Of a stretch of 64,000 nucleotides of DNA, positions 3,209 to 45,745 are shown in pieces. This DNA comes from Methanocorpusculum sp. (GTDB lineage: Archaea > Halobacteriota > Methanomicrobia > Methanomicrobiales > Methanocorpusculaceae): NCBI GenBank assembly GCA_017399555.1, contig JAFQBW010000014.1, positions 1 through 64,000 on the forward strand, read 5' to 3'. The position numbers and the translations under genes are program-made. The notes under the pieces were generated by a model. That model was not told the origin of the DNA, searched no databases, and saw nothing but the letters and a program-made list of their open reading frames with translations. Within the stretch, counting starts at the first letter, position 1, and each line of letters begins with the position of its first letter.

Positions 3209-3560
3209 ATACACTCATTCGCGGAAAATGAGAAAAAGGAATTGAGCATCTCATCGCGGTATCAGGATATTTGGGCTAAGGCGCTAGCCGCATGCCCATT
3301 AGGTGTCGCGTGCATACAGGCGTTGAGCAACTAATCGCGGTATCAAGATATTTGGGCTAAGGCGTCAGCCGCATGCCCATTAGGTGTCGCAAGGTATTCA
3401 CCTTGCTCATGGCTCGAGCAGGCTCTCGCCTGTCGCGGGCATACAGGCGTTTAGCAACTAATCGCGGTATCAGGATATTTGGGCTAAGGCGTCAGCCGCG
3501 ACTGAACGTTGCTTTATGAAGTTTTTTGAAAAATAGGGGTTGTTAGAATATCTCAAAGTG
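3209..3560. repeat. Hairpin-rich direct repeats upstream of the lipoprotein pair
   Basis: No gene is seen. Three partial direct copies of one unit begin at about 3243, 3324 and 3451: GAGCATCTCATCGCGGTATC or GCAACTAATCGCGGTATC, then ATATTTGGGCTAAGGCG, then (in the first two) GCATGCCCATTAGGTGTCGC. The first two copies fold as GGGC/GCCC outer stem, asymmetric internal loop TAA against GCAT, and GGC/GCC inner stem (3273-3297, 3354-3378). The third is cut short at 3498. Between copies two and three are two tetraloop hairpins: GCAAGGT/ACCTTGC (3389-3406) and CAGGC/GCCTG (3419-3432). The same hairpin design recurs at 62983-63014. Confidence 0.7.
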
Positions 3561-8723: not shown

Positions 8724-9809
8724 ATGATTCCCATAGCAAAACCATTCGCATCTGATGAAGAGGTAGCACATGTCCGCGATGTTATCCTCTCTGGAATGAT
8801 GGCATCTGGAGATGTTGTCCATGAGTTTGAACAGAAATTTGCAGAGTACTGCGGAACAAACTTTGGTGTTGCAACAACCAATGGTACAACTGCTTTGCAT
8901 GCTGCACTTCTTGCCGCAGGAGTAAAACCGGGAGACGAAGTCATTGTTCCGGCATTCACCTTCTTTGCCTCTGCCAGCAGTGTATCTATGTGCGGAGCAA
9001 AACCGGTTTTTGCAGATATTCTTCCGGACACCTACAACATTGACCCAAAATCCATTGAGGAAAAAATCACTGACAAAACAAAAGCTGTGATTGGTGTGCA
9101 CATCTTCGGACAGTGCTGTAATGCTCCGGCAATCGCTGATATTTGTAAGAAACACAATCTCACCTTCATCGAGGATGCAGCACAGGCACATGGTGCTTCT
9201 TGGAATGGAGTAAAAGCAGGAGCATTAGGGGATATGGCAACATTCTCCTTCTACCCAACCAAGAATATGACAACCGGGGAAGGAGGGATGGTTGTAACCA
9301 ATGACAAAACATTGGCAGATGTAATACGTGTTCTCTGTAATCATGGTCAGACGGAAAAGTATCTCCACACCATGCTTGGATACAACTATCGTATGACGAA
9401 TGTACACGCAGCAATTGGTCTCGAACAGTTGATGCGTGTTGATGGATTTACTGCCACGCGTCAAAGGAATGCAAGAATATTCTCAGAAGGAATCACTGCA
9501 GAAGGATTGACTGTTCCTTATGTTGCACCGGAAGCAGTACATGTTTACCACCAGTATGTCCTGAGAGTCGAGGACTCATTCCCGATGACCCGTGATGAAC
9601 TGATGCAGTATCTGGCAGACAAAGGAATCGGTTCAGCAGTTCACTATCCAATCCCGCTGCACAAACAGCCGTACTATGCAGAAGAGAACAAAGATATGGT
9701 TCTTCCGGTTGCAGAGGATGCTGCAAAGAGAGTATTAAGCCTCCCGGTTCATCCGGCAGTGACCGAAGAAGAATGCCGCTACATTGTTGATGTGATTAAC
9801 AATATCTGA
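8724..9809 (+). CDS. wbpE: DegT/DnrJ/EryC1 sugar aminotransferase, WbpE-like
   Basis: PLP-dependent nucleotide-sugar aminotransferase. The fold-type I motifs are clear: ATTNGTTALHAAL, DEVIVPAFTFFA, IEDAAQAHGA and the PLP lysine K180 in FYPTKNMTTGEGG. The family fits a WbpE/WlbC role, amination at C3 of UDP-3-keto-GlcNAc-uronic acid to give UDP-GlcNAc(3NH2)A. The specific role comes from neighbours: genes for the 2-epimerase, 3-dehydrogenase, 6-dehydrogenase and N-acetyltransferase of the same pathway follow on the same strand. The gap to the epimerase gene is only 5 nt. DegT enzymes have many substrates, so the family is certain and the exact reaction probable. Confidence 0.88.
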   Translation: MIPIAKPFASDEEVAHVRDVILSGMMASGDVVHEFEQKFAEYCGTNFGVATTNGTTALHAALLAAGVKPGDEVIVPAFTFFASASSVSMCGAKPVFADILPDTYNIDPKSIEEKITDKTKAVIGVHIFGQCCNAPAIADICKKHNLTFIEDAAQAHGASWNGVKAGALGDMATFSFYPTKNMTTGEGGMVVTNDKTLADVIRVLCNHGQTEKYLHTMLGYNYRMTNVHAAIGLEQLMRVDGFTATRQRNARIFSEGITAEGLTVPYVAPEAVHVYHQYVLRVEDSFPMTRDELMQYLADKGIGSAVHYPIPLHKQPYYAEENKDMVLPVAEDAAKRVLSLPVHPAVTEEECRYIVDVINNI

Positions 9810-19809: not shown

Positions 19810-20880
19810 ATGATTGATACAATTATTTCCCGTGCTTTGAACAACCAGTTTGTACTGATTGCAGAGATTGGGGTAAACTATTACGATATTGCAAAAAAAC
19901 TCTCGATATCGCCGATTGAGGCAGCAAAACTGATGATTCGAGAGGCAAAAAACTCTGGCATCCATGCAGTGAAATTCCAGACATACAAAGCAGAGACACT
20001 TGCCGCAAAGAACTCCCCTTCATATTGGGATACCTCAGAAGAGGCAACAACATCTCAATTTGCATTATTCAAGAAATTTGACTCATTCGGAAAAGATGAG
20101 TATGCTGAGCTCCGTCAGTACTCAGAAGAGATTGGTATTGAGTTTCTTTCGACGCCATTTGATATTGAATCTGCTGACTATCTCTATGATATGATGAATG
20201 TTTATAAGATATCCTCATCTGATTTGAATAATATCCCCTTTGTTGAATACATGGCAAAAAAAGGAAAGCCAATTCTTCTTTCAGTTGGTGCATCAAATGA
20301 GGATGAGATTGAGAGAACTGTTGATGTTATTAGAAAATATAATTCACAGCCGCTCTGCCTTCTCCACTGTGTGCTGGAATATCCGACACCATATGAACAT
20401 GCAAACCTAAATAAGATTGTCAGCCTGAAAGATAAATATCCTGATTTAATAATTGGATACTCTGACCATACAAAACCGGATATTTGTGCAGATGTTATTA
20501 AGACTGCATACAATCTTGGAGCTGTTGTTGTTGAGAAGCATTTCACTCTTGATAAAACGCTTGTCGGAAATGACCATTATCACGCAATGGATTCTGCGGA
20601 TGCAAAAAAGATTATTGATGGTATCTCATTTATCGATATGATTCGTGGTTCCTATCAATTATCCTGTCTGGAAAGCGAAAGTGCTGCAAGACAGAATGCC
20701 CGACGTTCTTTAGTTGCAGCTTGTGATATTCAAAAAGGTTCTGTTATCACTCGCGATATGATTACTTTTAAGCGACCTGGAGGAGGTTTATCACCTGTGT
20801 ATTTAGATGATATTATTGGGAAGAAAGCAGCAGTTGATATTGAAGATGATACTATTCTCCAAACAGATATGTTTGTCTAA
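19810..20880 (+). CDS. NeuB/PseI-type nonulosonic acid synthase
   Basis: 356 residues, the family's usual length. N-terminal TIM-barrel motifs are FVLIAEIGVNY, AVKFQTYKAETL, EFLSTPFDIESADYL, KISSSDLNN, LHCVLEYPTP and IGYSDHT. The C-terminal SAF (antifreeze-like) domain begins at about residue 288 with RRSLVAACDIQKGSVI and ends with GKKAAVDIEDDTIL. The enzyme condenses a six-carbon amino sugar with phosphoenolpyruvate to make a nine-carbon sialic-, pseudaminic- or legionaminic-type acid. It is 3 nt downstream of the cytidylyltransferase-hydrolase fusion gene. The PseG-like partner favours a pseudaminic-like product, but PseB/PseC/PseH homologues are not in the window. Confidence 0.9.
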   Translation: MIDTIISRALNNQFVLIAEIGVNYYDIAKKLSISPIEAAKLMIREAKNSGIHAVKFQTYKAETLAAKNSPSYWDTSEEATTSQFALFKKFDSFGKDEYAELRQYSEEIGIEFLSTPFDIESADYLYDMMNVYKISSSDLNNIPFVEYMAKKGKPILLSVGASNEDEIERTVDVIRKYNSQPLCLLHCVLEYPTPYEHANLNKIVSLKDKYPDLIIGYSDHTKPDICADVIKTAYNLGAVVVEKHFTLDKTLVGNDHYHAMDSADAKKIIDGISFIDMIRGSYQLSCLESESAARQNARRSLVAACDIQKGSVITRDMITFKRPGGGLSPVYLDDIIGKKAAVDIEDDTILQTDMFV

Positions 20881-21002
20881 AATATCTTTATCCTTTCTCC
20901 ATATTTTATCGTAACTGCTTAAGCATGATATATGCTCTATCTCGAACACCAGGAATGGCTTGATAAACTCCAAGCAAAACTATAAAAAAAGAAGAGGTTT
21001 CC
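20881..21002. other. Spacer with hairpin at the end of the displaced secD copy
   Basis: AT-rich spacer. A hairpin GAAGAGGT/ACCTCTTC (about 20991-21012) overlaps the stop of the secD fragment and could serve as a terminator for leftward transcription. No gene is seen. Confidence 0.3.
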
Positions 21003-21348
21003 TCACCTCTTCGCTAAAATCTCCATCACTATTCTTCCATACGCTGGTCTTGTAATCAGCACGCCAATCAGAATTCCCAGAATATTAATAATTGCAAATC
21101 CTTTCAGCGTGGATAAATCCATAATAATCAGCGGGAACATCGCAATAATCACCGTTGCCGCCGACGTCATAATAATCACCAGCGCACGCTTCAGCCGCTT
21201 TAGATACAAAACCTTTGAGGGCACACGACCTTCATGCATAACCTCGTCAGTGATAATGACAAGCTGGTCAATACCGGTTCCCAGAACTGCAATCAGTGCC
21301 GCAATAGCTGCTAAGTCAAGCTGCTGATAAAGACCGCAATACCTAACA
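21003..21348 (-). pseudogene. Displaced duplicate of the secD 3' end
   Basis: About 345 bp nearly identical (roughly 97 percent by eye) to the last part of the intact secD at 23979-24325. It encodes the same C-terminal residues from LDLAAIAALIAVLG to the stop. The ten or so substitutions I can find are all synonymous. A 1-bp deletion near 21325 (CTGCTGATAAAG against CTGCTGAATAAAG) breaks the frame at the upstream edge, and homology ends at about 21348 after CAATACCTAACAG. Without the upstream 390 residues it cannot make functional SecD. Same orientation as secD, so the two copies are direct repeats enclosing about 2.6 kb of accessory DNA. Confidence 0.9.
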
Positions 21349-21425
21349 GAGTAGAGCACTTGCTTTTTGTCTCTGTAACCCAGATGTTGGGAATGTTTCT
21401 CCTCCAATTCGGACCAACACATACA

Positions 21426-21660
21426 ACCAATCATCTGTCATCTGTCACCTATATTTTCCAAAAACAAAGACACCTCCATTCCAAAGCCCACTTCATCCTA
21501 CTCAAAAAATCGCCATTTCTTCCATTCATATTTATATAAAGAACAACTAAACTAAACAACAAGAAGACACCTCCGAACGGAAATGACGCAAAGCGGCGAA
21601 GAATTTCCGGCAAGCATACTTTTCTATTTTGAACCCGGTGACAGATGACAGATGATTGGT
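21426..21660. mobile_element. MITE-like element with perfect 24-bp terminal inverted repeats
   Basis: A 235-bp noncoding stretch bounded by a perfect 24-bp inverted repeat (21426-21449 with 21637-21660). The right arm begins GGTGACAGATGACAG, and each arm contains an internal doublet of ATCTGTC or GACAGAT. Inside is AT-rich DNA with two ACACCTCC copies and no credible gene. Size and perfect ends match a miniature inverted-repeat transposable element. I see no clear target-site duplication, and no matching transposase is in the window. It lies just inside the left secD duplicate. Confidence 0.65.
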
Positions 21661-21824
21661 CGTTCAACATCACATAGTACCTCTTGACAATGTTCTCCTC
21701 CGCAGTTTCATAAACACTATCATATTACATTTGCAGTTGCTATCCCCCCTCCCAAGTATTATACATATAGGTCTTAAAGACGACTTCATTTATTAAGTAC
21801 AGCACATAAAAATCGCTGTGGCAC

Positions 21825-21881
21825 ATATTTATATGAAATCAGACAAAATGATACATAATCTATCTCAGGAGGAGGGAGAAC
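21825..21881 (+). promoter_or_regulatory. Promoter and strong ribosome binding site of the AlbA_2 gene
   Basis: A TATA-like ATTTATATGA at about 21828 lies some 50 bp before the start. A strong Shine-Dalgarno AGGAGGAGGG (about 21867-21876) lies 5-8 nt before the ATG at 21882. The remaining 21661-21824 holds nothing recognisable. Confidence 0.5.
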
Positions 21882-23396
21882 ATGCTTGACATAGAACACC
21901 TCGAAAAATATCAGGAAAACAACCGTATTGAGGCCAAAAAAGCATTAGGAGGACTGCCTAAAAGCATCTGGGAAACATATTCTGCATTTGCCAACACACT
22001 TGGCGGAATCATCCTTCTTGGTGTTGAAGAAAATACCGATAAAACCCTCCGTCCAATCAACCTCCCAAATCCCGAACAGCTCATAAAAGAGTTCTGGGAC
22101 ACCATAAACAACCCCAAAAAAGTCAGTGTCAACATCCTCTCCGACAAAGATGTTCAAATCGCCGAAACAAACGGATGTCATATCATAGTCATTACTGTCC
22201 CAAGGGCAGAGAGAGCTGACAAACCAATCTTCATTGATGGAAACCCGCTTTCCGGAAGCTATCGGAGAAATGGCGAGGGAGACTACAAATGTACGCGGGA
22301 TGAAATCTCTGCAATGCTGCGCGATGCAGCGGTAAAAACGCAGGATTTGCGGGTTCTCGAAAATATGGATGCCGCCGTCTTTGATACAGACAGTATTCAC
22401 CGATATCGAAACAGAATGGCATCCCTGCGGCCGGGACACGTATGGGGGGAGCTGGATGACTGTGACTTCCTCTACAAACTCGGCGCCCTTGGAAGAAGTG
22501 AAGATGGAAAGCTTCATCCAACAGCAGCAGGTCTTCTCATGTTCGGACACGAATATGAAATCGTCCGCGAGTACCCCAACTACTTCCTTGACTATCGTGA
22601 GATCTCAGAGGAAAATGAGCGTTGGACAGACAGAATCGTATCAACCTCCGGAGATTGGAGCGGAAACCTCTATGACTTCTATTTCCGCGTATACCAGAAA
22701 CTCACCGAGGGACTAAAGATCCCCTTCAAAGTCGAGCGGGGAGATCGAATTGATGATACCAGAGTACACAGCGCCATACGGGAGGCATTGGCAAACTGTC
22801 TGGTGAATGCAGATTATCACGGAAGCCGTGGTGTTGTAATCATCAAAAAATCGAGCGGAATAACCCTGGAAAATCCCGGAGGATTCAGAATTAGTATTGC
22901 AGATGCAAAAAGCGGAGGGATTTCCGACCCGCGAAACACCACGCTTATCAAGATGTTTAATCTGATAAACATTGGAGAGCGTGCAGGAAGCGGCATTCCA
23001 AACATATACTCTGTTTGGGAAAAACAAGGATGGGGATGCCCGGATATCAAAGAAACATTCGAACCAGACAGGATTACAATATCATTAGGAACACCGTTCG
23101 ATAAAACCGCTAATCTGCAGAAAGCGCTGATAAATGCCGCTGACAATACAAAACCGCTGATAATAAGCGTTGATAAATCAAAACCGTCGATAAATACCGC
23201 TGACAAACCCAAGAGACAAAAAGAAATTATCATCGAATATCTAACAGATAACCCGTCAGCATCTTCAGCAATGCTCGCAGAACTGCTTGGACTCAAACTG
23301 ACACGAACACGGGAAATCCTGCGTGGGATGGTAAATGCAGGAATTATTGTCTCCGAGGGACAAAATAAAAACAGAATCTACCGATTAAAATCCTGA
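21882..23396 (+). CDS. AlbA_2 (Schlafen-like) / GHKL ATPase-domain / winged-helix protein
   Basis: 504 residues in three parts. Residues 1-130 are an AlbA_2 domain, with NRIEAKKALGGLPKSIWETYSAFANTLGG and ILLGVEE. The middle (about 270-390) is an HATPase_c_4 domain, with REALANCLVNADYHG, ITLENPGGFRI, GISDPRNTTLIKMFNLI and GERAGSGIPNIY. A Thr/Lys/Pro-rich linker with repeated DKSKPSINTADKPK-like units leads to a C-terminal winged helix (SSAMLAELLGLKLTRTREILRGMV). Such proteins are annotated as ATP-binding regulators or RecG-like putative helicases, are often strain-specific, and some relate to defence. It is the only intact gene in the secD-flanked island. Function in this organism is unknown. 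Confidence 0.85.
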   Translation: MLDIEHLEKYQENNRIEAKKALGGLPKSIWETYSAFANTLGGIILLGVEENTDKTLRPINLPNPEQLIKEFWDTINNPKKVSVNILSDKDVQIAETNGCHIIVITVPRAERADKPIFIDGNPLSGSYRRNGEGDYKCTRDEISAMLRDAAVKTQDLRVLENMDAAVFDTDSIHRYRNRMASLRPGHVWGELDDCDFLYKLGALGRSEDGKLHPTAAGLLMFGHEYEIVREYPNYFLDYREISEENERWTDRIVSTSGDWSGNLYDFYFRVYQKLTEGLKIPFKVERGDRIDDTRVHSAIREALANCLVNADYHGSRGVVIIKKSSGITLENPGGFRISIADAKSGGISDPRNTTLIKMFNLINIGERAGSGIPNIYSVWEKQGWGCPDIKETFEPDRITISLGTPFDKTANLQKALINAADNTKPLIISVDKSKPSINTADKPKRQKEIIIEYLTDNPSASSAMLAELLGLKLTRTREILRGMVNAGIIVSEGQNKNRIYRLKS

Positions 23397-23541
23397 CCAA
23401 AATCAATCCTCAGGTATTTTCAGCGTGTCCGGCGTTGCCCATAACCTCTCCCGCTAGACAGGTATGTGTAATATTTGCAGTTATTGTATGCAAAGTTGAC
23501 GTCAAAAACGCGAGATCAATTACATTAAACGACAGATAATA

Positions 23542-23859
23542 ATTTATGTTGCAGACGTGGGACTTCTTCGGAGAATGAGCTGTATTCCCGCATCATCATT
23601 ATTCACTCTTGGCCCGCAGACAGCCTTCATGCGGAGAATGCTCATCGAAAACTTTGTACTGACTGAACTCATGAGCATGAAAGAGATGCATCCATACTTC
23701 TGGCGTTCCAAACGCGGAGCAGATGTGGAATTCCTTGTTCAAAACGGACAGATTATCTTTCCGGTTGATGTTAAATCAGGAGGAAATACCCGCTCGAAAC
23801 GTCTTGCCGAATTCCGGAAAAATATCTTCCGAAAATATCTCTCAGAACAAGTATGGTAA
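23542..23859 (+). pseudogene. Truncated AAA ATPase, DUF4143 C-terminal remnant
   Basis: An in-frame open stretch from 23542 reads IYVADVGLLRRMS and continues with FMRRMLIENFVLTELM, FWRSKRGADVEFLVQNG, FPVDVKSGG and SKRLAEFRK. This is the conserved end of the DUF4143 domain of archaeal/bacterial AAA ATPases. Full-length members are about 400 residues with an N-terminal P-loop, none of which is present. A stop codon lies directly upstream (23539-23541) and no plausible start exists. It is therefore a remnant of an accessory gene in the island. Confidence 0.8.
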
Positions 23860-23978
23860 ATTTGGGAGAAAAAACGACGAGTATGGAACACAGTACTCCA
23901 TACCACTCTACTTATTATGGAACATCTGGAATTGTATCCGAAATACTAAAACAGAGAAAGAAGTGAGGTTCTCTCCCC

Positions 23979-25466
23979 TCACCTCTTCGCTAAAATCTCC
24001 ATCACTATTCTTCCATACGCTGGTCTTGTAATCAGCACGCCAATCAGAATTCCCAGAATATTAATAATTGCGAACCCTTTCAGCGTGGATAAATCCATAA
24101 TAATCAGCGGGAACATCGCGATAATCACCGTTGCCGCCGACGTCATAATTATCACCAGCGCACGCTTCAGCCGCTTCAGATACAACACCTTCGAGGGCAC
24201 ACGACCTTCATGCATCACCTCATCAGTGATAATGACAAGCTGGTCAATACCGGTTCCCAGAACCGCAATCAGTGCCGCAATAGCTGCTAAGTCAAGCTGC
24301 TGAATAAAGACTGCAATACCTAACAGGATAACAATCTCTGTGACATTTGTCAGAACCATTGGGAGAACAATAGCCGCCACACGGTATCGCAGATAGACTG
24401 TCAGCGCAACCGCGGCAAGGGCTGCAATTCCTGCGATGACACACACAATCTTGAAGTAATCACCAAGCGCCGCCGAAGTCGAACCAGAACCGGCAATCTC
24501 AACCTCTACTGGGAGTGCTCCGGCTCTCAGGTGAACCTCCAGCTCCTGCGCCTTCTGTTTTCCTTCTTCTCCCACTCCGGTCGATGCTGAGAGAGAGTTT
24601 ACCGGATGCAGTGCAATCTGTGCTGCCAGCTCATAGGAAAGCGGAGCACTGTAGACGACCTCGGAATCCAGGTACATATTGATATTGTGTGCCTGCGGAT
24701 TTCTGGTAGCTCCGGTCTCAATACACTCCTTCTGGAACGCCTTTGCTCCGGTATCATCGAGCGTGAAACCGACACCCCACACACCGGTTGCCGGATCTTT
24801 CTGCGGAGTCTGCACGGCAATAACCGAATCTCCGTAAAGCACATGCTCTGTCTCCTCTCCGGTTGTCTGGATTCTGATTTCAAACAGTCCCTGCTTTCCG
24901 ACAATCTCCTGTGCCTCCTGCATATCAACGCCGGCAAGCTCTACGCGGACATACTGCGCAACCCCGTTGATACTGGTTAATACATTCACCTTCACATCAC
25001 TGGTGCCGAGACTGTTTACCTTCGACTCTAAGATGCGTTTTACCGAATCTGCAGTGTCACTGCCGACCCCTGCTTCCGAGCTGATATACACTGCTCCTGC
25101 TTTTGCCGCAGCCGCTTTCAGTTCGGCTTCGGTAAACTTCTTGTCCACCTCAACCTTTCCGATATCTATCGGCTTTACGGTACAGTCAAGTGTATCAGAC
25201 ATCGACTTGGCAACTGCATAAATATCGACCGGCGTCTGGACTGTCACTACATCTGCCTGGAACTCAAGCTGAATCCAGGACCCTCCTTCCAGATCAAGAC
25301 CGAACTGCAGATTTGTAATGCCGTCTCTGTCCCCTACCGGAGCAAAAATTGCAATCAGGGAGGCAGCGACAAGAATTGCCGCGATAATTACGTATGGGTC
25401 GCGGATGAGGGCTGCTGCTCCGTGATACTCTTTCTTCTCACGTTTCTGCACTGGAGTTCGTTTCAT
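23979..25466 (-). CDS. secD: Preprotein translocase subunit SecD
   Basis: 495 residues, archaeal SecD. There is an N-terminal membrane segment, then the D1-type motif LQFGLDLEGGSWIQLEF, a large extracytoplasmic domain, and five C-terminal helices including LGTGIDQLVIITDEV and GFAIINILGILIGVLITRPAYG. With SecF it uses the ion gradient to aid late steps of Sec-dependent export. It overlaps secF by 4 nt (ATGA), with secF upstream as usual in archaea. Its last 345 bp are duplicated at 21003-21348. Because an island lies between the two copies, this gene's 3' end may be the one brought in or regenerated by the insertion. Confidence 0.95.
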   Translation of the reverse strand: MKRTPVQKREKKEYHGAAALIRDPYVIIAAILVAASLIAIFAPVGDRDGITNLQFGLDLEGGSWIQLEFQADVVTVQTPVDIYAVAKSMSDTLDCTVKPIDIGKVEVDKKFTEAELKAAAAKAGAVYISSEAGVGSDTADSVKRILESKVNSLGTSDVKVNVLTSINGVAQYVRVELAGVDMQEAQEIVGKQGLFEIRIQTTGEETEHVLYGDSVIAVQTPQKDPATGVWGVGFTLDDTGAKAFQKECIETGATRNPQAHNINMYLDSEVVYSAPLSYELAAQIALHPVNSLSASTGVGEEGKQKAQELEVHLRAGALPVEVEIAGSGSTSAALGDYFKIVCVIAGIAALAAVALTVYLRYRVAAIVLPMVLTNVTEIVILLGIAVFIQQLDLAAIAALIAVLGTGIDQLVIITDEVMHEGRVPSKVLYLKRLKRALVIIMTSAATVIIAMFPLIIMDLSTLKGFAIINILGILIGVLITRPAYGRIVMEILAKR

Positions 25467-35869: not shown

Positions 35870-35925
35870 CCGTCCATTAATATAAGGAGAAGCCGTCAAT
35901 ATAATTTGATGGAGGTTTTCGACAT
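35870..35925 (+). promoter_or_regulatory. Promoter and ribosome binding site of hppA
   Basis: ATTAATATAAGG (about 35876-35887) is TATA-like. A good Shine-Dalgarno GGAGGT (about 35911-35916) lies 9 nt before the ATG at 35926. Confidence 0.5.
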
Positions 35926-38010
35926 ATGGACTTAGTATATCTTGTTCCAGTTTGTGCCGTAATCGGCCTTCTCTTCGCCCTTTACTCCTTCTCTGTTGTA
36001 AAGAAGGAGAAAGTGGAAGATCAGAAAATGATCAAGATTGCAGACGCTATTCACCTTGGCGCCCGCGTCTTCCTGAAGAGCCAGTACAAAGCTATCGCAG
36101 CTTTTGCAATTGTCGTCGCCATTATCCTCGCAGTGCTTATTGCACCAATTAACGCACTCTGCTACCTCATTGGTGCAGCACTCTCTATGTGCGCAGGATA
36201 CATTGGAATGACCAGTGCAACCAAAGCAAACGTTAGAACCACCAACGCAGCAAAACGCGGTATCGCAGCAGCAGTTAAGGTCTCCTTCGCATCCGGATCC
36301 GTCATGGGTATGTCCGTCGTCGGTCTTGGATTACTCGGTCTTTCTGCACTCTTCATCATCCTCGTCATCGTCTTCGGCGGATTTGGTGACTTAACCGCAG
36401 TCAATGCAGTCGTTTCCGCAATGGCATCATTTGGTTTTGGTGCATCCTCTGTCGCACTCTTTGCACGTGTCGGCGGCGGTATCTTCACCAAGGCAGCAGA
36501 TGTCGGTGCTGACCTCGTCGGTAAAGTCGAGGCAGGTATTCCGGAAGATGACCCGAGAAACCCAGCTGTTATCGCAGACAATGTCGGTGACAACGTCGGT
36601 GATGTCGCAGGAATGGGCGCAGACTTATTCGAGTCCTACGTCGGTTCCATCATTGCAGCAATGGCACTCGGAGGAGCAGCAGCATTATTCGCAGCAACCA
36701 CCTACGGTGAGACTCTCGATGCACTCGCACTCATCCTCCTTCCGATGTTCATCTCTGCATTCGGTATCATTGCAGCAATCATTGGAACTCTGTTCGTCAG
36801 AACCTCCAAGAACGAATCCTCTGCAATTCACAAGGCATTCAACACCGGAACCATCATTGCAATCATCGTTTCCCTCCTTGGAACCTATGCATTCACCAGC
36901 TTCCTCCTCTACGGCAACTTCACCATGATCACCATGGGTGCAGGATGCCTTGGTATGGGTATCTGGTTCGCAACCATCGCAGGTCTTGTCGGCGGATTCG
37001 CAATTGGTCTCATCACTGAGTACTACACCTCCTTCGACTACAAGCCGACCAAGAAGATCGCAGAGTCCTGTCAGACCGGAGCTGCAACCGACATTATCAG
37101 CGGTTTCGCAAAGGGAATGGAATCTACCATCTGGCCAGTCTTAATCATCTCTGTTGCAATCTTCATCGCATACAACTTCGCAGGTATGTACGGTATCGGT
37201 ATCGCAGCAGTCGGTATGCTCTCTACTCTTGGTATCTCCCTTGCAGTTGATGCATACGGTCCGGTCGCAGACAATGCAGGCGGTATTGCTGAGATGTCCC
37301 ACCAGGACCCGAAGGTTCGTGAGATCACTGACACCCTTGACGCAGTCGGAAACACCACTGCAGCAATCGGTAAGGGATTCGCAATCGGATCTGCAGCACT
37401 CACTGGTCTTGCACTCTTCAGTGCATACTCTCTTGCAGTCGGTATCGAAGCAATCGATATCTTAAACACCAGCGTCTTTATCGGTATTCTCATCGGCGGT
37501 ATGCTTCCGTTCCTCTTCTCTGCACTCACTATGACCGCAGTCGGTTCCGCAGCAGAGAAGGTTGTCGTTGAAGTCCGCAACCAGTTCAAGAACATTAAGG
37601 GATTAATGGAAGGAACTGCAGATCCGGACTACGAGTCCACCATTAAGATCTGTACTACCTCTGCAATCAAGAAGATGATTGCACCGGGTGTCCTTGCAAT
37701 CGTTGCACCAATCGCAGTCGGTCTTATCTTAGGCCCGCTCGCACTCGGCGGTCTCTTAGTCGGTTCCCTTGTATCCGGTTTCCTCCTTGCTATCACTATG
37801 GCAAACGCAGGCGGAGCATGGGACAATGCAAAGAAGTTTGTTGAACTCGGTAACTACGGTGGAAAGGGCTCTGAGGCTCACAAGGCAGCAGTTGTAGGTG
37901 ACACTGTTGGAGATCCGTTCAAGGATACCTCCGGTCCGTCCATCAACATTCTGATTAAGCTTATGTCTATGATTGCACTGGTTTTCGTTCCAGTCATTCT
38001 GATGTTATAA
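35926..38010 (+). CDS. hppA: Membrane-bound ion-pumping pyrophosphatase
   Basis: 694 residues with about 16 hydrophobic segments. The pyrophosphate/Mg site DDPRNPAVIADNVGDNVGD and the second acidic cluster near the C terminus (GDTVGDPFKDTSGPS) are intact. The motif GNTTAAIGKGFAIGSA, with Ala where K+-independent enzymes have Lys, places it in the K+-dependent group, which in methanogens such as Methanosarcina includes Na+ pumps. It would hydrolyse PPi from biosynthesis while exporting Na+ (or H+). Monocistronic, with its own promoter and terminator. Confidence 0.95.
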   Translation: MDLVYLVPVCAVIGLLFALYSFSVVKKEKVEDQKMIKIADAIHLGARVFLKSQYKAIAAFAIVVAIILAVLIAPINALCYLIGAALSMCAGYIGMTSATKANVRTTNAAKRGIAAAVKVSFASGSVMGMSVVGLGLLGLSALFIILVIVFGGFGDLTAVNAVVSAMASFGFGASSVALFARVGGGIFTKAADVGADLVGKVEAGIPEDDPRNPAVIADNVGDNVGDVAGMGADLFESYVGSIIAAMALGGAAALFAATTYGETLDALALILLPMFISAFGIIAAIIGTLFVRTSKNESSAIHKAFNTGTIIAIIVSLLGTYAFTSFLLYGNFTMITMGAGCLGMGIWFATIAGLVGGFAIGLITEYYTSFDYKPTKKIAESCQTGAATDIISGFAKGMESTIWPVLIISVAIFIAYNFAGMYGIGIAAVGMLSTLGISLAVDAYGPVADNAGGIAEMSHQDPKVREITDTLDAVGNTTAAIGKGFAIGSAALTGLALFSAYSLAVGIEAIDILNTSVFIGILIGGMLPFLFSALTMTAVGSAAEKVVVEVRNQFKNIKGLMEGTADPDYESTIKICTTSAIKKMIAPGVLAIVAPIAVGLILGPLALGGLLVGSLVSGFLLAITMANAGGAWDNAKKFVELGNYGGKGSEAHKAAVVGDTVGDPFKDTSGPSINILIKLMSMIALVFVPVILML

Positions 38011-38414
38011 GCTGATACTTCAGAATAAACCCAATTTATTTTTTGAGGATTTCTTAAAACCTCAATTTCTTCCTGTAAGTTATTTTCGCGTTTCTCTTCG
38101 TGCAGCTTTCGCGGGAAAATACACCCCTACACATGAGATGGACAAACTGCTGGAAAAATCACTAACTCAAAACAGACATCAACCATTCTAAAGAAGGAAG
38201 TTTGCATTCTTTCTGACTGGTGCTTTCAATGCATATCATGGATTCTCTCATAGAGAGGAGTTATCCAGTGTTTCCTTCTTTTCTTCTTCATTTCTTTCAG
38301 GTTTTTCTTTCACCTCCAAACAAATAATATGTTGTTCGGTATTGTTAAACTATGTCCTGAAAAATTAAGGAAACTTCTAAAAAACCGAAAATAAAAGGAG
38401 GAGAGATGCCCTGT
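38011..38414. other. Intergenic region, no gene seen
   Basis: AT-rich spacer between convergent genes. A hairpin TGAGG/CCTCA (about 38044-38066) followed by pyrimidine-rich DNA is a probable terminator for hppA. A CTCTC-ATA-GAGAG mini-hairpin lies near 38246. I see no open frame, tRNA or clear repeat in the rest. Confidence 0.5.
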
Positions 38415-39641
38415 TTACGGCATCTGCTTGACTGCTTTTGCAATCTCCTGACCAAGCTTGAAGAACATCTCCTTGTCCTCAGCCTGCGGGCGGTAGGTGA
38501 ACTCAACCGGCTCATGCCAGATTTCGATTCCTGCCTTCTGCATCAGCTCAGTGATGACCTTCGGTGCACCTCCCTTACCGCCGTTGGAGCCGAATGCGAA
38601 ACCAATCTTCTTCTGTGCCTGCTTGCCTGGTCTGATACCTGCAAGGTAGTACAGGAATCCTGCAACGGTCGGCAGCGGATAGTCCTCAAGAGTTGGGGAA
38701 CCGACGATGACTGCTTTGGAGTCTAAGATGTCGCGGACAACATCAGAGCGGTGGACACCTTCGTATCTGCCGTCTTTGAGTAAATCGAACTTAACCTCGA
38801 CACCCTCGGAGATTGCTCCCTCTGCGATGTACTGTGCGGCAGTACCGGTGGAGTAGTGCATGGTGTCGTAGACGATGGTAATCTTGTTCTTGGAAACACC
38901 GTTTGCCCATGCAACATATGCGTTGATGATGTCTGCTGCGTGGCTTCTCCAGATAATACCGTGGGATGGTGCAATCATCTCGATTGGGACACCAAGTTCA
39001 GTGACCTCACCGAGTTTCTTTAAGACCTTCGGGGAAAGCGGGACAATTAAGTTTGCAACGAACTTTGCTGCGTGCTCCATTGCCTCGTCGATACCAAGCT
39101 CATCATCGAAGCGTGCACTGGATGCAATGTGCTGTCCGAACGCATCATTCGGGAAGAGCACTTTGTCTTCTCCAAGGTAGGTGAACATGGAATCCGGCCA
39201 GTGGAGGAACGGTGCCTCGAGGAAAGTTAAGGTCTTGCCGCCGAGCTCAAGGGCTTCTAAGTTCTTGATGGTGTGGATGTTCCAGTCCTTGGTGTCATAG
39301 TGGCGTGCAAATCCTTTCTTTGCAATCTCGGTCATATAGATCGGCACATTCGGGAGCTTCTTTGCCAGCATCGGCAGAGATCCGGAGTGGTCGATTTCGA
39401 TGTGGTTTGCAACGATATAGTCAATCTTCTCGAGCGGGATAACAGACTCGATACGCTCAATCATCTGCCACTCGTGTCCCGGATAGGTACCGTCGATTAA
39501 GGCAACCTTCTCTCCTAAAACAAGGTATGCGTTATAGGTGGTTCCAGGGAGTGTGTATCCGTGGTAGTCTCTGATATTCCAGTCGATAGCGCCTACCCAG
39601 TAAACGCCTTCTTTAATCTTTACTGCCTGTAACATACTCAT
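38415..39641 (-). CDS. fprA: Flavodiiron protein, F420H2 oxidase type
   Basis: The start at 39641 (MSMLQAVKIKEGVYWVG) is preferred over one 21 codons upstream. A TATA box TATATAAC at about 39660 lies 20-25 nt away, which fits a leaderless transcript. The N-terminal metallo-beta-lactamase domain has the di-iron ligands HIEIDHSGS. The C-terminal flavodoxin domain begins TIVYDTMHYSTGTAAQYI. Methanogen FprA reduces O2 to water with reduced F420, protecting the cell from oxygen. At 408 residues the length is right for the two-domain form without extra rubredoxin. Divergent from ileS. Confidence 0.92.
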   Translation of the reverse strand: MSMLQAVKIKEGVYWVGAIDWNIRDYHGYTLPGTTYNAYLVLGEKVALIDGTYPGHEWQMIERIESVIPLEKIDYIVANHIEIDHSGSLPMLAKKLPNVPIYMTEIAKKGFARHYDTKDWNIHTIKNLEALELGGKTLTFLEAPFLHWPDSMFTYLGEDKVLFPNDAFGQHIASSARFDDELGIDEAMEHAAKFVANLIVPLSPKVLKKLGEVTELGVPIEMIAPSHGIIWRSHAADIINAYVAWANGVSKNKITIVYDTMHYSTGTAAQYIAEGAISEGVEVKFDLLKDGRYEGVHRSDVVRDILDSKAVIVGSPTLEDYPLPTVAGFLYYLAGIRPGKQAQKKIGFAFGSNGGKGGAPKVITELMQKAGIEIWHEPVEFTYRPQAEDKEMFFKLGQEIAKAVKQMP

Positions 39642-39766: not shown

Positions 39767-42700
39767 ATGAAAGAAGTATCAGAAAGCTATGTCCCGAAAA
39801 ACGTCGAGGCGGAAGTCCGTGCGTACTGGGAAGAAAATAACACTTATCGCGAAACCAGAAAACTCCGTGAGGCAGGAAAGCCGTGGCTCTTCGTCGACGG
39901 TCCGCCGTACACCACCGGTTACATCCACTTAGGAACTGCCTGGAACAAAATCTTAAAGGATGCCATCATCCGCTACCGCTCCATGACCGGCAGAAACATC
40001 ATTGAGCGTGCCGGATATGACATGCACGGTCTCCCGATTGAGGTCAAGGTCGAAGAGAAACTCGGCTTCAAGAACAAGGCTGATATCGAAGAGTACGGTG
40101 TTGCCAAATTCATCGAAGAGTGCCGCGAGTTCGCCTTAACCCACAAAGACTTGATGAGCGACCAGTTCAAGGAAATCGGTACCTGGATGGATTTCGACGA
40201 TCCGTATCAGACCGTTGACAAAGGATACATCGAGGCCGCCTGGTACACCTTAAAGAAGTGTGCCGACAAGGGATACCTGGAACGCGGAAGCCGTGTTGTC
40301 AACTGGTGTCCGAGATGCGGAACAGCAATTGCCGACGCTGAAGTCGAGTACGCTGATGAAACCGATCCGTCCATCTTCGTCAAGTTCCCGATTGAGGGAG
40401 CAGAAAACGAGTACCTTGTTATCTGGACCACTACCCCGTGGACACTTCCTGCCAACGTCGCTGTTGCAGTTGGTGAGGAGTTCGTCTATGCAAAGTGCCG
40501 TGCAGAAAAGGACGGAAAAACAGAAGACCTCTGGATTGCCAAAGACTTAGCAGAACAGATCTTAAAGTATGGTAAATACCAGAAGTTCGACATCATTGAG
40601 ACCAAGACCGGAGCAGAACTTGCGGGCACCAAATACGTATCCCCACTCGCATCCCAGGTTCCGCTGCAGGCAGGCATCGAGCACAAAGTTGTCGTTGCAG
40701 ACTATGTCGCCCTCGAAAACACCGGTATGGTCCACATCGCACCGGGACACGGATGGGATGACTACCTCGTCGGTCAGAAGTACGGTCTCCCGATTATCTG
40801 CCCGGTTGACGGAAACGGAAACTTTACTGCAGAAGCCGGTATCTTCGAAGGAAAATACGTCAAAGACCCGGCAACCAATGATGAGGTCATCAAAGAGCTT
40901 GGTGACTATATGCTTGCGGTCCGCAAGATTACCCACCGCTACGGACACTGCTGGAGATGTAAGACGCCGATTATTTACCGTGCAACCTCCCAGTGGTTCT
41001 TAAAGGTTAAGGAAGTCAAAGACCAGATGCTCAAAGAGATTGCAGAAGAGGTCACCTGGATGCCGGACTGGGCAGGTTCGGCCCGCTTCCACGACTGGAT
41101 TGCCGAAGCACGCGACTGGTGTATTTCCCGCCAGAGATACTGGGGTATTCCAATCCCGGTCTGGGTGTGCCCGAAGTGTAACAAATATCATGTTGTCGGA
41201 AGCTACGAAGAGCTCGAGACCTTATCCGGTCAGAAGATGTTTGACCCGCACAGACCGTATGTTGATGAGATTACGCTCCCGTGCGAATGCGGCGGTCAGA
41301 TGCAGAGAGTGCCGGATATCTTTGATGTCTGGTATGACTCCGGTGTCGCCTCCTGGGCAACCTTACGCTTCCCGGAGAAGACCGAGGACTTCGAGAAGTA
41401 CTGGCCGGCAGACATGATTCTGGAAGGTCAGGACCAGACCCGCGGATGGTTCTACTCGATGCTTGCGCTCTCTACAATGGCATTTGGAAAGTCTCCGTAC
41501 AAGTCTGTCTTGATGCACGGTTTCGCTCTTGATGCAAACGGCAAGAAGATGAGCAAGAGTTTAGGAAACGTCGTAACTCCGGAGGATGTTATCGCAAACT
41601 ACGGTGTTGATGTTATGCGTCAGTACATCTTCTCCGCATCCGCACCATGGGATGACCTGCGTTTCTCCTACGAGGGTATCAAGACGACTCTTCGTATGTT
41701 CAACGTCTTATGGAACGTTTACAAGTTCCCGCTGCCATACATGGCGCTCGACGGCTTTGTTCCAAAGGAAGTTGACGGCAAGTGGGACCCGAGTGTTGTC
41801 GAGGACCACATTGCAGAGTTCGGCCGCGAGGACAGATGGCTTATCTCCCGCGTGAACTCCCTTGCAGAGCAGGTTACCAAAGAGATGGAAGCAGGAAACC
41901 TTCACCGTGCAACCAGACCAATCTCCACCTTCGTTCTCGACGAGCTTTCCCGCTGGTATGTGCAGCTGGTCAGACCAAGAATGTGGCTCGAGGAGGATTC
42001 TGTCTCCAAGGTTCAGGCATATGAGACGATGTACTATGTGCTTCGCAGACTCATTACCATCATGGCTCCGTTCGCACCGTTCGTCTGCGAGAAGATGTAC
42101 CAGAACCTGAAATGTGCAGGCGAAGTTCCGTCCGTTCACATGCAGGACTGGTTCGCCGGACGCGAAGAGCTCCGTGATGCTGTTCTTGAAAAGGAGATGG
42201 AGCTTATCCAGTCCTTCGATGAGGCTGTGGCAAACGCCCGCCAGAACGGTAAGAGAAAGGGACGCTGGCCGGTCTTAGAGGTTGTCGTGGCAACCGAGTC
42301 CGATGAAGTTCTTGATGCAGTAGCCGCCATGAATGATATGGCATGCGAGCGTGCAAATGCACGCGCTGTCTCTGCTGTCAAGGGTGTCTGGGACAAATTA
42401 GAGTGGACTGCAGTTCCGACCATGAAGGCAATCGGTAAGCAGTTCGGCCGCGACGGTCCGAAGGTGAAGGCATTCATCGAAAACAGCAACGGCAGTGAAC
42501 TGAAGGCAGCTCTTGTCCGCGACGGAAAGATTGCTTTCTCCGAAGGCGAGTTCTCCTGTGAACTGACCGAAGAGCACATGACCTTTACCGAGCGTATGCC
42601 GGAGAACATCTTCTCTTCCCCGATGCAGGACGCAACGGTTTACGTCAACGTCACCTTAACGCCGGAGCTTGAGTCCGACGGATACTCCAGAGAAGTTATC

Positions 42701-42940
42701 CGCCGTATTCAGGAGATGAGAAAGCAGGCAGGTCTTGCGGTCGATGCAAAGATTGTGGCGTCCGTTGTTCTTGCTGATGAGCGGATTGCCGGTCTTGTTG
42801 AGCAGAAGAATGCGGAAATTGCCGGTGAAGTCAGAGCTGAGGTTCTGACGGTGCGCTTTGGCACTTCCTCTGATGCAGAGGATACCGAGTGGGATATCGA
42901 CGGTCTGAAGGCATTCATCAGCATCGTCCCGCTCAACTAA
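39767..42940 (+). CDS. ileS: Isoleucyl-tRNA synthetase
   Basis: 1057 residues, class Ia synthetase. The HIGH-like motif is GPPYTTGYIHLGTAWNK and the KMSKS motif is KKMSKSLGNVVTP. The catalytic core has RAGYDMHGLPIEVKVE, and the editing (CP1) domain has WTTTPWTLPANVAVAV. Zn-binding NWCPRCGTAI and CWRCKTPI sites are present. The C-terminal anticodon-binding region has VDAKIVASVVL. It charges tRNA-Ile with isoleucine in the cytoplasm. The stop is followed by a T-rich tract that probably ends transcription. Confidence 0.97.
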   Translation: MKEVSESYVPKNVEAEVRAYWEENNTYRETRKLREAGKPWLFVDGPPYTTGYIHLGTAWNKILKDAIIRYRSMTGRNIIERAGYDMHGLPIEVKVEEKLGFKNKADIEEYGVAKFIEECREFALTHKDLMSDQFKEIGTWMDFDDPYQTVDKGYIEAAWYTLKKCADKGYLERGSRVVNWCPRCGTAIADAEVEYADETDPSIFVKFPIEGAENEYLVIWTTTPWTLPANVAVAVGEEFVYAKCRAEKDGKTEDLWIAKDLAEQILKYGKYQKFDIIETKTGAELAGTKYVSPLASQVPLQAGIEHKVVVADYVALENTGMVHIAPGHGWDDYLVGQKYGLPIICPVDGNGNFTAEAGIFEGKYVKDPATNDEVIKELGDYMLAVRKITHRYGHCWRCKTPIIYRATSQWFLKVKEVKDQMLKEIAEEVTWMPDWAGSARFHDWIAEARDWCISRQRYWGIPIPVWVCPKCNKYHVVGSYEELETLSGQKMFDPHRPYVDEITLPCECGGQMQRVPDIFDVWYDSGVASWATLRFPEKTEDFEKYWPADMILEGQDQTRGWFYSMLALSTMAFGKSPYKSVLMHGFALDANGKKMSKSLGNVVTPEDVIANYGVDVMRQYIFSASAPWDDLRFSYEGIKTTLRMFNVLWNVYKFPLPYMALDGFVPKEVDGKWDPSVVEDHIAEFGREDRWLISRVNSLAEQVTKEMEAGNLHRATRPISTFVLDELSRWYVQLVRPRMWLEEDSVSKVQAYETMYYVLRRLITIMAPFAPFVCEKMYQNLKCAGEVPSVHMQDWFAGREELRDAVLEKEMELIQSFDEAVANARQNGKRKGRWPVLEVVVATESDEVLDAVAAMNDMACERANARAVSAVKGVWDKLEWTAVPTMKAIGKQFGRDGPKVKAFIENSNGSELKAALVRDGKIAFSEGEFSCELTEEHMTFTERMPENIFSSPMQDATVYVNVTLTPELESDGYSREVIRRIQEMRKQAGLAVDAKIVASVVLADERIAGLVEQKNAEIAGEVRAEVLTVRFGTSSDAEDTEWDIDGLKAFISIVPLN

Positions 42941-43053
42941 CATTTTTCTTTTTTTGTCTGGGTTGTATTATCGGACTTTGTAAGAGTGTTTTCCCTACGC
43001 GAAAAAACTATTCGCGTTCAAAAGCCTTCGCAACGAAGAAAACTAAAAAAAGA

Positions 43054-43572
43054 TTATTTTACAATCCCGACAAAGGGAAGGTTGCGGTATTTCTGGTCAA
43101 CATCAAGACCATATCCTACCACGAAGTCATTTCCGATAGTAAAACCGATGTAGTCTCCATCAAACGGTACAACGCGGCACTCGTGTTTATCTAAGAGAGA
43201 ACAGACCTTCAGCGATGCCGGCTTTCTCTTCAGCATCATCTCTTTTACCACAGACAGCGTTCTTCCGGTATCAATCACATCCTCGATGATAATGATGTGT
43301 TTTCCTTCAATTGCTTCGTCTGGAACATCCAGTTTCATGGAGACAGTACCGGTGGACTGTGTTCCCTCATAGCTTGCTGTCTGGATGAAGTCCATGAAAA
43401 CCGGAATCGTAATCCGCTTTGCAAGCTCGCAGGCGAAGAACACCGCGCCTTTTAAGGTGCAGAGAAGAGTGATACTCTCTCCTGCGTAATCAGCGTCAAT
43501 CTGTGCCGCAAGCTCTCTAATTCGTGCATCAATGACTTCTTCGGAAAGTAAGACGTCGATGGTATCCATCAT
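43054..43572 (-). CDS. hpt: Hypoxanthine phosphoribosyltransferase
   Basis: 172 residues. The PRPP-binding loop IIIIEDVIDTGRTLS is clear. LCTLKGAVFFACELA and SYEGTQSTGTV, the flexible loop, are of the type found in bacterial Hpt. The end GNDFVVGYGLDVDQKYRNLPFVG contacts the purine in bacterial enzymes. It salvages hypoxanthine and guanine to IMP and GMP. Most archaea use a different Hpt subfamily, so this gene may come from bacteria. It is convergent with ileS. Confidence 0.92.
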   Translation of the reverse strand: MMDTIDVLLSEEVIDARIRELAAQIDADYAGESITLLCTLKGAVFFACELAKRITIPVFMDFIQTASYEGTQSTGTVSMKLDVPDEAIEGKHIIIIEDVIDTGRTLSVVKEMMLKRKPASLKVCSLLDKHECRVVPFDGDYIGFTIGNDFVVGYGLDVDQKYRNLPFVGIVK

Positions 43573-43603
43573 AGATACTCATACAACGCAGAATAAAATA
43601 TGA

Positions 43604-45745
43604 TTATCGGAATGCCAGAACGTCTGCGGCTGATTCTGCATTCCATGCGGATGCCGCATCTTTGCCGGAAGATTCCGCATAGAGTACTGCTGCGTATGCA
43701 GTGTTTTCTGCTCCGGGCAGGCAGAAGAGTTTGTCTGCGGCCTCATCCTTCGGCTCGGCACAGACGACCTCGAGCGCTTCTTTCATCTGGCGGTAGGATG
43801 CATCTGCCGGATTCAGCAGGCATGCTTCCTTTGCGGCCGCAAGAGCTTCGGTAAATTCGCCAAGCCGGATGGATGCCTTTGCAATTCCTGCCCATGCCGC
43901 CGGGAAGCGTTCGTTCTGCTTCAGGGCAAGACGGTATGTTTCAACCGCCTGCTTATAGTCTCCCTCCTCTGCTTCCATCCAGGCAAGCTCGATTAAGATG
44001 CGGGAGCGAATCTCGCTTCCCGGATTTGCCCGAAGCGCCGCTCTCAGCATCGAGCGGGCGGCATCGACCATACCTAAATCAAGATAGACTGAACCGAATG
44101 CAAGCGATACACGGGCACGCTCGTCATCTCTGGTCGAGCGGGACGCGAGAATCTGCTCGGCTGCTTCGCGGCGCTTTTCGCGGGAAAGGAACAGGAATGC
44201 CGGATAGATAACTGCCGCCGCAGACTCGATGCTCTTCGAAAGGCTTGCGGTAACCGCATTGTTTAATGTTGAGACTGCCTGCGCAAACTCATCGACGTCC
44301 ATTGCATGAACAACCGCTTCCAGTGCGGGAATGCCGCGGGCATATCCGGCCGCCTCCGGAATCAGTCCTGCGGCAACTGCGGCAGAGAACTGCTTTGGAA
44401 GTATTCTGTCTTTGAGTTCCGGCATCAGTTCTGCGGCACGGCTGTACCAGAAGAGTGCACACACCGGATCGAAACCGAAGTAGGCGAAGTCTCCTTTCTC
44501 AACAGCCCGTGCAGCATCCAGCGCATCATCAGCCGCAGAAAGGGCTGCCGCATCCGGATTTCCGGCATAATCAAGATGCATGTTCATCTCGGTTAAGCGG
44601 TTCAGTGCGGCAGAAAAGATTGCTTCCGGACAGTCCGGAGTTGCTACAACCTCCTCAATCCAGCGGTACTCATCCGCATAGTTTTTGCGTTTTCCGGCTT
44701 CAGCGGCAAAGGAGAAGCGAAGGGCACTGCGTTCATCTGCCGGAAGCTCTTCGATGAGTTTTGCGATGCGGGAGTAGTACTCCTGCATGTCCTCGCCTAA
44801 ATCCTCTCCTGCGAAGCAGAGGTTCTTGAGGCCGTCTGCGATTGAGTATTTCCCTTCTTCGCGGCTTAACAGGAAGGCATTCTTATACGATTCAAAGGCA
44901 TTGTCGAAGTCTTTGAACTCGGTAAGAATTTTGCCCATCATCTCGAATGCCGGTTTTTCCACAGGAGTTCCGGCGTATGCAAGAGTGATGTTTGCATATA
45001 AATCCAGTGCCGAATCATAGTTTCCGGTAGTGTAGAGCCAGTCTGCGGCAGAAACTGCCGGACGGCTGTCGCTGAGGTCTAAGAGCGGGCGGACAATACT
45101 TCCCCACTCCTCGTAGGATACCCGCGGCATGTTGAGCCAGACGGTCATCTCGTCTTCGGAAAGCGTGGAAAACCATGCACCGGCAACGCAGACAACTGCA
45201 TCATAGACGATATCAGCAGAAAGTTCCGGCACACCGGCAAGAACTGCCGCGGCAGTGTCTAACGGGAACACATGCCAGAAGGGGCGGCGTCCGGAACCGA
45301 AGTACATGTCGGAGTTTCTGATTCTGTCGATTACCGCACTGCGGCTTTTGATTCTCCAGAATGATTCCGGCGTATTTGTCTCTGATTCAGCGAAGAGTTC
45401 AGCGGTTTTATTGGTGCCGGAGATATGGGAGCGAAGGAAGCATGCAAGGACTTCTTTTCTTTTGCCGGAAGCATCTCTGTAGGCGGAGATGAGCCATTCT
45501 TTGAGTGTGGTTTCCGGCTTTTCTGCTTCTCCGCAGTCTGCAAGAAGCGAGAGAAGGAGTCCTCTGTCCTCTTCATGATTCAGGATAGAGGAGACGACGC
45601 GGGCATGGAATCCTCCGTCAACACTCATGCGGTACAGAAACATGTTCTGTAATACGAGGAGTTCGTAGGATTCTTCTGCCCCGTCAAAGACGGTTAGATA
45701 ATCGCAGAGATACTGCTGTGTGAGATGCCCTTCGCTGACATTCAT
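43604..45745 (-). CDS. TPR-repeat protein of unknown role
   Basis: 713 residues, no signal peptide, made largely of helix pairs of TPR type. Clear units include SALDLYANITLAYAGTPVEKPAF with DFDNAFESYKNAFLLSREEG, GDYKQAVETYRLALKQNERFPAAWAGIAKA, and FTEALAAAKEACLLNPADASY at about residues 595-660. It starts MNVSEGHLTQQYLCDYL and ends without a recognised enzyme domain. It probably acts as a cytoplasmic scaffold. TATA-like ACATATAAGG (minus strand, about 45765) precedes it. It stands 31 nt from hpt, so the two may be co-transcribed. Confidence 0.75.
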   Translation of the reverse strand: MNVSEGHLTQQYLCDYLTVFDGAEESYELLVLQNMFLYRMSVDGGFHARVVSSILNHEEDRGLLLSLLADCGEAEKPETTLKEWLISAYRDASGKRKEVLACFLRSHISGTNKTAELFAESETNTPESFWRIKSRSAVIDRIRNSDMYFGSGRRPFWHVFPLDTAAAVLAGVPELSADIVYDAVVCVAGAWFSTLSEDEMTVWLNMPRVSYEEWGSIVRPLLDLSDSRPAVSAADWLYTTGNYDSALDLYANITLAYAGTPVEKPAFEMMGKILTEFKDFDNAFESYKNAFLLSREEGKYSIADGLKNLCFAGEDLGEDMQEYYSRIAKLIEELPADERSALRFSFAAEAGKRKNYADEYRWIEEVVATPDCPEAIFSAALNRLTEMNMHLDYAGNPDAAALSAADDALDAARAVEKGDFAYFGFDPVCALFWYSRAAELMPELKDRILPKQFSAAVAAGLIPEAAGYARGIPALEAVVHAMDVDEFAQAVSTLNNAVTASLSKSIESAAAVIYPAFLFLSREKRREAAEQILASRSTRDDERARVSLAFGSVYLDLGMVDAARSMLRAALRANPGSEIRSRILIELAWMEAEEGDYKQAVETYRLALKQNERFPAAWAGIAKASIRLGEFTEALAAAKEACLLNPADASYRQMKEALEVVCAEPKDEAADKLFCLPGAENTAYAAVLYAESSGKDAASAWNAESAADVLAFR

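Follow-up and report, generated by a model that had tools for sequence, protein, structure and literature searches.

Introduction

How does a housekeeping gene come to have its 3' end twice, in the same orientation, with accessory genes in between? The question is raised by secD in the genome of a gut methanogen, Methanocorpusculum sp. (GCA_017399555.1, contig JAFQBW010000014.1), within the 64,000-nt stretch of DNA analysed here and called the window. The original prediction offered two readings, namely an unrecognised class of integrative element that uses the secD end as its attachment site, or a product of homologous recombination. Here, we compare the locus with 24 other genomes of the genus, one per species (25 with this one), and use profile searches, DNA alignment, shuffle tests and a codon-level comparison of the two gene ends to weigh these readings against an assembly chimera and a local duplication.

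Results

The secD 3' end is duplicated in direct orientation

The prediction of a repeat of about 345 bp of the secD 3' end, in the same orientation, holds in the alignment. The features of the repeat and its surroundings are:

19810–20880, forward strand: NeuB-type nonulosonate synthase (profile match), the left neighbour
20984–21012, reverse strand: terminator hairpin of the left copy by folding, stem GAAGAGGT/ACCTCTTC followed by seven T in the sense of secD
21003–21349, reverse strand: truncated second secD 3' end, the left-hand repeat (remnant), 97% identical, with one 1-nt deletion
23957–23988, reverse strand: terminator hairpin of the intact secD by folding, 5' arm the same as in the left copy, 3' arm different
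23979–25466, reverse strand: intact secD, 495 aa (SecD_SecF_C; NCBIfam SecD equivalog NF006217, E 3.1e-202), whose last 348 bp (23979–24326) form the right-hand repeat

The starts of the two copies lie 2976 bp apart, and 336 of the 348 alignment columns are identical, with runs of 93 and 44 identical nucleotides; the rest are 11 substitutions and the deletion, which is the sole indel and lies 23 nt from the truncated end of the left copy. The match (BLAST E = 3.9e-163) is far beyond chance. It extends from 2 bases past the TGA stop (21001 and 23977) up to 21349 and 24326, where homology ends abruptly; the best local alignment score beyond this 5' edge was reached in 102 of 500 shuffles, and we rejected a longer, diverged repeat on this result. 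On the other side, downstream of the stop codons, the two copies give no significant local alignment when it is left free (123 of 500 shuffles) and a significant one when the stop serves as its anchor (11 of 2000), so that the two terminators may have a weak common ancestry. The 5' arm common to both hairpins is in the last codons of the gene, and each copy has a separate 3' arm.

Among those listed, all other families of direct repeats of 60 bp or more in the window lie at about 2.6–3.5 kb. There, a 73-nt sequence is present in three tandem-like copies at 3237–3517 (spacing 81 and 127), with a 150-nt pair adjoining at 2581/3110.

The DNA between the copies is accessory and contains no recombinase match

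The 2.6 kb between the two ends contain the following features:

21350–21422, no strand: distal end of the putatively foreign stretch, where it meets the cut-off secD end; a search of 41 genomes gave no match
21423–21663, no strand: MITE-like element of 241 bp, bounded by terminal inverted repeats of 27 nt (21423–21449/21637–21663)
21882–23396, forward strand: intact AlbA_2/HATPase_c_4 gene, 504 aa (Pfam), with an HTH_24 match just below the cut-off
23440–23511, no strand: sequence of about 72 bp (TGTAATATTTGCAGT...TTGACGTCAAAAA), also found in three relatives beside the homologue of the gene at 57645–59117
23467–23859, forward strand: decayed DUF4143 ATPase gene, C-terminal part only, in tail-to-tail arrangement with secD (Pfam fragment 23557–23859)

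Inverted repeats and Pfam matches thus bear out the predicted contents, a MITE-like element, an AlbA_2/ATPase gene and a truncated DUF4143 gene, and the predicted absence of a recombinase gene also held: Pfam gave no recombinase match in the two island genes or in 9 further ORFs, the latter being without any match. The AlbA_2 protein matches pAgo-type profiles in PADLOC (E 1.3e-9 and 2.3e-6) as well as a PHROG labelled DNA helicase, and has no relative in the viral contigs searched; a 78% identical homologue is present in G009, elsewhere in that genome and on another contig than its secD. The DUF4143 fragment matches PADLOC PDC-S01 profiles, and the wider DUF4143 match at 23467–23781 has one in-frame TGA inside. 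We also considered a conserved AlbA_2-DUF4143 cassette. The AlbA_2 homologue in G009 stands beside a full-length gene that we take, by reading its sequence, to be of the DUF4143 type; this pair is convergent and its DUF4143-type gene has no DNA match to the fragment, and therefore no common cassette is shown.

One further, diverged copy of the MITE-like element is found in the same genome (G000:C22, about 9515–9754, G000 being this genome). Its repeat end, with at most 2 mismatches, is present in 2 of the 25 genus genomes, once in G006, and its inner 58 bp match G018:C12 at 78%. The sequence of about 72 bp lies inside the island in the window and at L072 5070–5118, L074 4935–5005 and L075 5053–5123 in the relatives (49 bp in G006), a distribution that suggests a shared promoter/operator or a small repeat.

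Relatives have a single secD end and different genes beside it

A search with the SecD protein found nine loci, eight of them in Methanocorpusculum records and the ninth, a 27% match, in a different organism. The secD end is present in a single copy in all 21 relatives with a secD match; the three genomes that have none, G001, G005 and G012, are 61–73% complete. This count covers every first-look candidate, except in G007, where 28 of 30 were scored. The same two-copy layout in all relatives, which the original prediction named as a sign of an old tandem duplication, was not seen: a second end is present in 0 of 21. The other arrangement that it put forward, an empty site in which secD runs directly into the nonulosonate synthase, was not found either, as the homologue of this synthase is absent downstream of secD in the 21 relatives, over compared stretches of 431 to 10000 bp that are short in G023 (431 bp), G010 (512), G009 (2742) and G015 (4567). 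This comparison of neighbours excluded ORFs that overlap longer ones and so left out the DUF4143 fragment, the DNA of which was searched separately; the neighbourhood was compared at the DNA level in 8 of the 21 relatives. A putative donor locus, in which secD adjoins island DNA, was not seen in the 25 genus genomes, at one genome per species.

What stands beside secD in the nearest species varies. In both G006 and G018, secD borders on a homologue of the window's 1057-aa gene (39767–42940), which we take from its sequence to be an isoleucyl-tRNA synthetase; in G009 the adjoining DNA is homologous to the genes at 43054–45745. Judged by gene order, the 3' side of secD is a synteny breakpoint among the nearest species, because the closest relatives carry different genes there. 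A core gene in such a position, next to DNA that changes, lends itself to anchoring recombination.

In the window, the genes at 39767–42940 and 43054–45745 adjoin each other. Their convergent junction at about 42940–43054 (window 39767–43572) is another synteny breakpoint between close Methanocorpusculum species, and both of its genes, the second (43054–43572) presumably a phosphoribosyltransferase by its sequence, adjoin secD in different relatives.

Does the locus derive from an integrative element?

The layout equals that of site-specific elements that rebuild the gene end into which they insert, such as e14 in icd, an integrative element that rebuilds the 3' end of a protein gene: a direct repeat of 348/347 bp with 97% identity restores the secD end, and the gene end is duplicated on both sides of inserted DNA. 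The 93- and 44-nt identical runs could hold a core site, the island genes are typical accessory cargo, and the genome has recombinases elsewhere, with five PF00589 matches. It also contains the only PF00239 serine-recombinase match among the 25 genus genomes (G000:C22:36819–37241), a coincidence that favours an integrative origin a little. Nonetheless, the locus appears unlikely to be the remnant of an element that used the secD 3' end as its attachment site, restored it and later lost its recombinase gene. Apart from the island lacking a recombinase match, no second instance at secD was seen in the 21 relatives, and the secD end is absent from the viral, phage and plasmid collections searched. 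PF00589 matches occur in 23 of the 25 genus genomes, but none lies within 60 kb of secD on the same contig, a comparison in which only 5 secD contigs hold such a match and many contigs are short; on the contigs examined, many of them likewise short, no PF00239 match lies within 60 kb of secD. The serine recombinase itself is on another contig, among surface-glycan-type genes. Finally, the known integrative elements that rebuild gene ends tend to have shorter identity blocks than the 348 bp seen here, and the divergence of this block, unlike that expected in e14-type elements, resembles the divergence between alleles (see below). We found no report in the literature that links secD to an integration site, an integrative element and an integrase.

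Two recombinases of this genome were considered as partners of the island and rejected. The tyrosine recombinase at G000:C6:89861 shares a contig with the island; of the 25-nt inverted repeats beside it, the first 14 nt are absent from the window and from the other loci compared. For the serine recombinase on G000:C22, the surrounding 8 kb have no match to the secD repeat or to the island.

Both have surroundings of their own, outside the window. At L099 9447–12902 (G000:C6, about 89447–92902) the tyrosine recombinase gene is followed by perfect 25-nt inverted repeats (L099 10423–10447 and 12878–12902) that flank a 320-aa ORF, which reads like a glycosyltransferase, and a 449-aa ORF; this segment looks like an invertible, phase-variable one. 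At L106 2893–5648 (G000:C22, about 35892–38647) the PF00239 gene (L106 3817–4419) lies between two opposite-strand ORFs that share EKIRSLFHANILYLEY...GGDIYRKWADAV; it perhaps encodes an invertase by which a surface-glycan gene exchanges its 3' parts.

Could the two ends have been joined by the assembler?

One contig could have been assembled from two strains living together, of which one has NeuB beside secD and the other the accessory DNA. A divergence of 3% is exactly what one would expect between two strains, the single indel is close to the odd junction, and the assembly (92.66% complete) is in 67 contigs. Both flanks are single-copy in the assembly, however, the right one over 8.7 kb and the left one over 7.7 kb (one flank search scored 40 of its 52 first-look candidates, the other all 36), which counts against a mixture of strains. 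The contamination estimate is 0.98%, and no shared sequence that could mislead an assembler was found past the 5' edge of the repeat. We regard such a chimera as quite unlikely.

The copies differ in the manner of alleles

All 11 substitutions between the copies are at third positions and synonymous, against a chance expectation of 26–33% for the synonymous share; the 4 or 5 changes borne by the remnant would alone all be synonymous by chance with a probability of about 0.001–0.012. Working orthologues of near species differ in this manner too, the ratio of synonymous-codon to nonsynonymous-codon differences being 59:3 for G006, 55:7 for G018 and 68:12 for G023. In a FastTree phylogeny the copies are sisters (support 1.00), the remnant on a branch of 0.011 and the working gene on one of 0.024. 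With polarity read by eye, the derived state appears to be in the remnant at 4 columns and in the working gene at 5, while 2 columns are ambiguous; at one substitution column all 21 relatives agree with the remnant.

Given the synonymous-only changes, the shorter branch of the remnant and a terminator hairpin of its own at each copy, the remnant probably still functioned as a gene end not long ago. In this test, made on 11 substitutions, the two ends are best read as alleles from two close strains, with selection acting on both alleles until a short time ago. An alternative route to the same pattern is gene conversion between the copies, which could erase nonsynonymous changes.

These data bear directly on a local segmental duplication, in which a chromosomal rearrangement at secD would have copied the gene end and accessory DNA would have been inserted between the copies later. 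The synteny breakpoint on the 3' side of secD, with its different neighbours in G006/G018 and in G009, speaks for a rearrangement. However, the decaying by-product of a local duplication should change faster, and at all codon positions, so the shorter branch of the remnant counts against it; a freely decaying copy should not show synonymous-only changes either, and a local origin needs conversion between the copies to fit the data. We consider it very unlikely, and an old local duplication followed by decay is disfavoured on the same grounds. Highly improbable is the most specific integrative reading, that the secD 3' end is the attachment site of a small archaeal element with perhaps defence-related cargo (the AlbA_2 ATPase and the DUF4143/PDC-S01 ATPase), a recombinase supplied from elsewhere and a 348-bp block that rebuilds secD.

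Discussion

What, then, produced the second secD end? We consider it probable, from the arrangement and the divergence of the two copies, that sister-strain DNA entered the resident secD by homologous recombination, most likely as a circle of about 2.98 kb with one crossover. Of the two readings in the original prediction, the homologous-recombination product is thus the one favoured, by the 11 of 11 synonymous differences, while an integrative class loses ground for want of a recombinase, of a second case at secD and of a secD end in viral, phage or plasmid collections.

The donor fragment would have contained the last ~348 bp of the sister strain's secD together with downstream accessory DNA, that is, the DUF4143 remnant, the AlbA_2 gene and the inverted-repeat element. 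After putative uptake, this fragment would have been trimmed and circularised to about 2.98 kb, and the circle would have integrated by one crossover inside the 348 bp. The expected product is a full-length secD, with a 3' end that is partly or wholly the donor's, followed by the donor's downstream DNA, the displaced resident end with its own terminator and the NeuB operon; the NeuB-type gene is presumed to be the former downstream neighbour of secD in the recipient. In a variant route, the fragment would have recombined homologously within secD at one end and been joined illegitimately at the opposite end.

Both routes have experimental counterparts in Escherichia coli lacZ. Of 60 Lac- clones initially regarded as candidate illegitimate recombinants, 56 yielded a PCR product that pointed to a duplicated gene end, and 14 sequenced duplications measured 109–950 bp (PMC3240628). 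The explanation given is a single crossover of DNA that had been trimmed and recircularised, and the remaining 4 of the 60 clones apparently arose by homology-facilitated illegitimate recombination (PMC3240628). As in our case, part of the gene end is directly duplicated beside inserted DNA; unlike the lacZ clones, the event proposed here is a natural one in an archaeon, read from sequence alone, between alleles 3% apart. The usual laboratory product of the illegitimate route is a deletion (PMC3240628), whereas a duplication is seen here, and we therefore favour the circle over an illegitimate join. Both routes were rare in those experiments (PMC3240628). Also weighing against our reading, neither a donor locus nor an empty site turned up in the relatives compared, and the AlbA_2 homologue of G009 is on a different contig from its secD.

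A related process has been proposed for Vibrio T6SS loci, where one-sided homology is thought to push old 3' modules downstream, although plain homologous replacement was considered commoner (PMC5361080). In the T6SS immunity arrays and in Rhs genes, as at secD, a conserved gene anchors the incoming DNA and the old 3' part becomes a downstream orphan (PMC5361080). In contrast to those systems, the locus described here is without toxin-immunity modules; the gene that serves as its anchor has a housekeeping role in export, and no use is evident for the orphan end. Transformation has been described in Methanococcus maripaludis, a methanogen other than Methanocorpusculum (PMC10133366).

In conclusion, these comparisons suggest an ordinary if seldom caught event that known recombination explains well enough. 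The duplication of secD is by itself no pointer to a new mobile class, and its interest is modest. The synonymous-only test tells allele-type duplications from local ones and could be run genome-wide to count such cases. In Methanocorpusculum, the locus would represent a frozen archaeal case of strain-to-strain recombination, in which a core gene served as the anchor and its old end was left behind.
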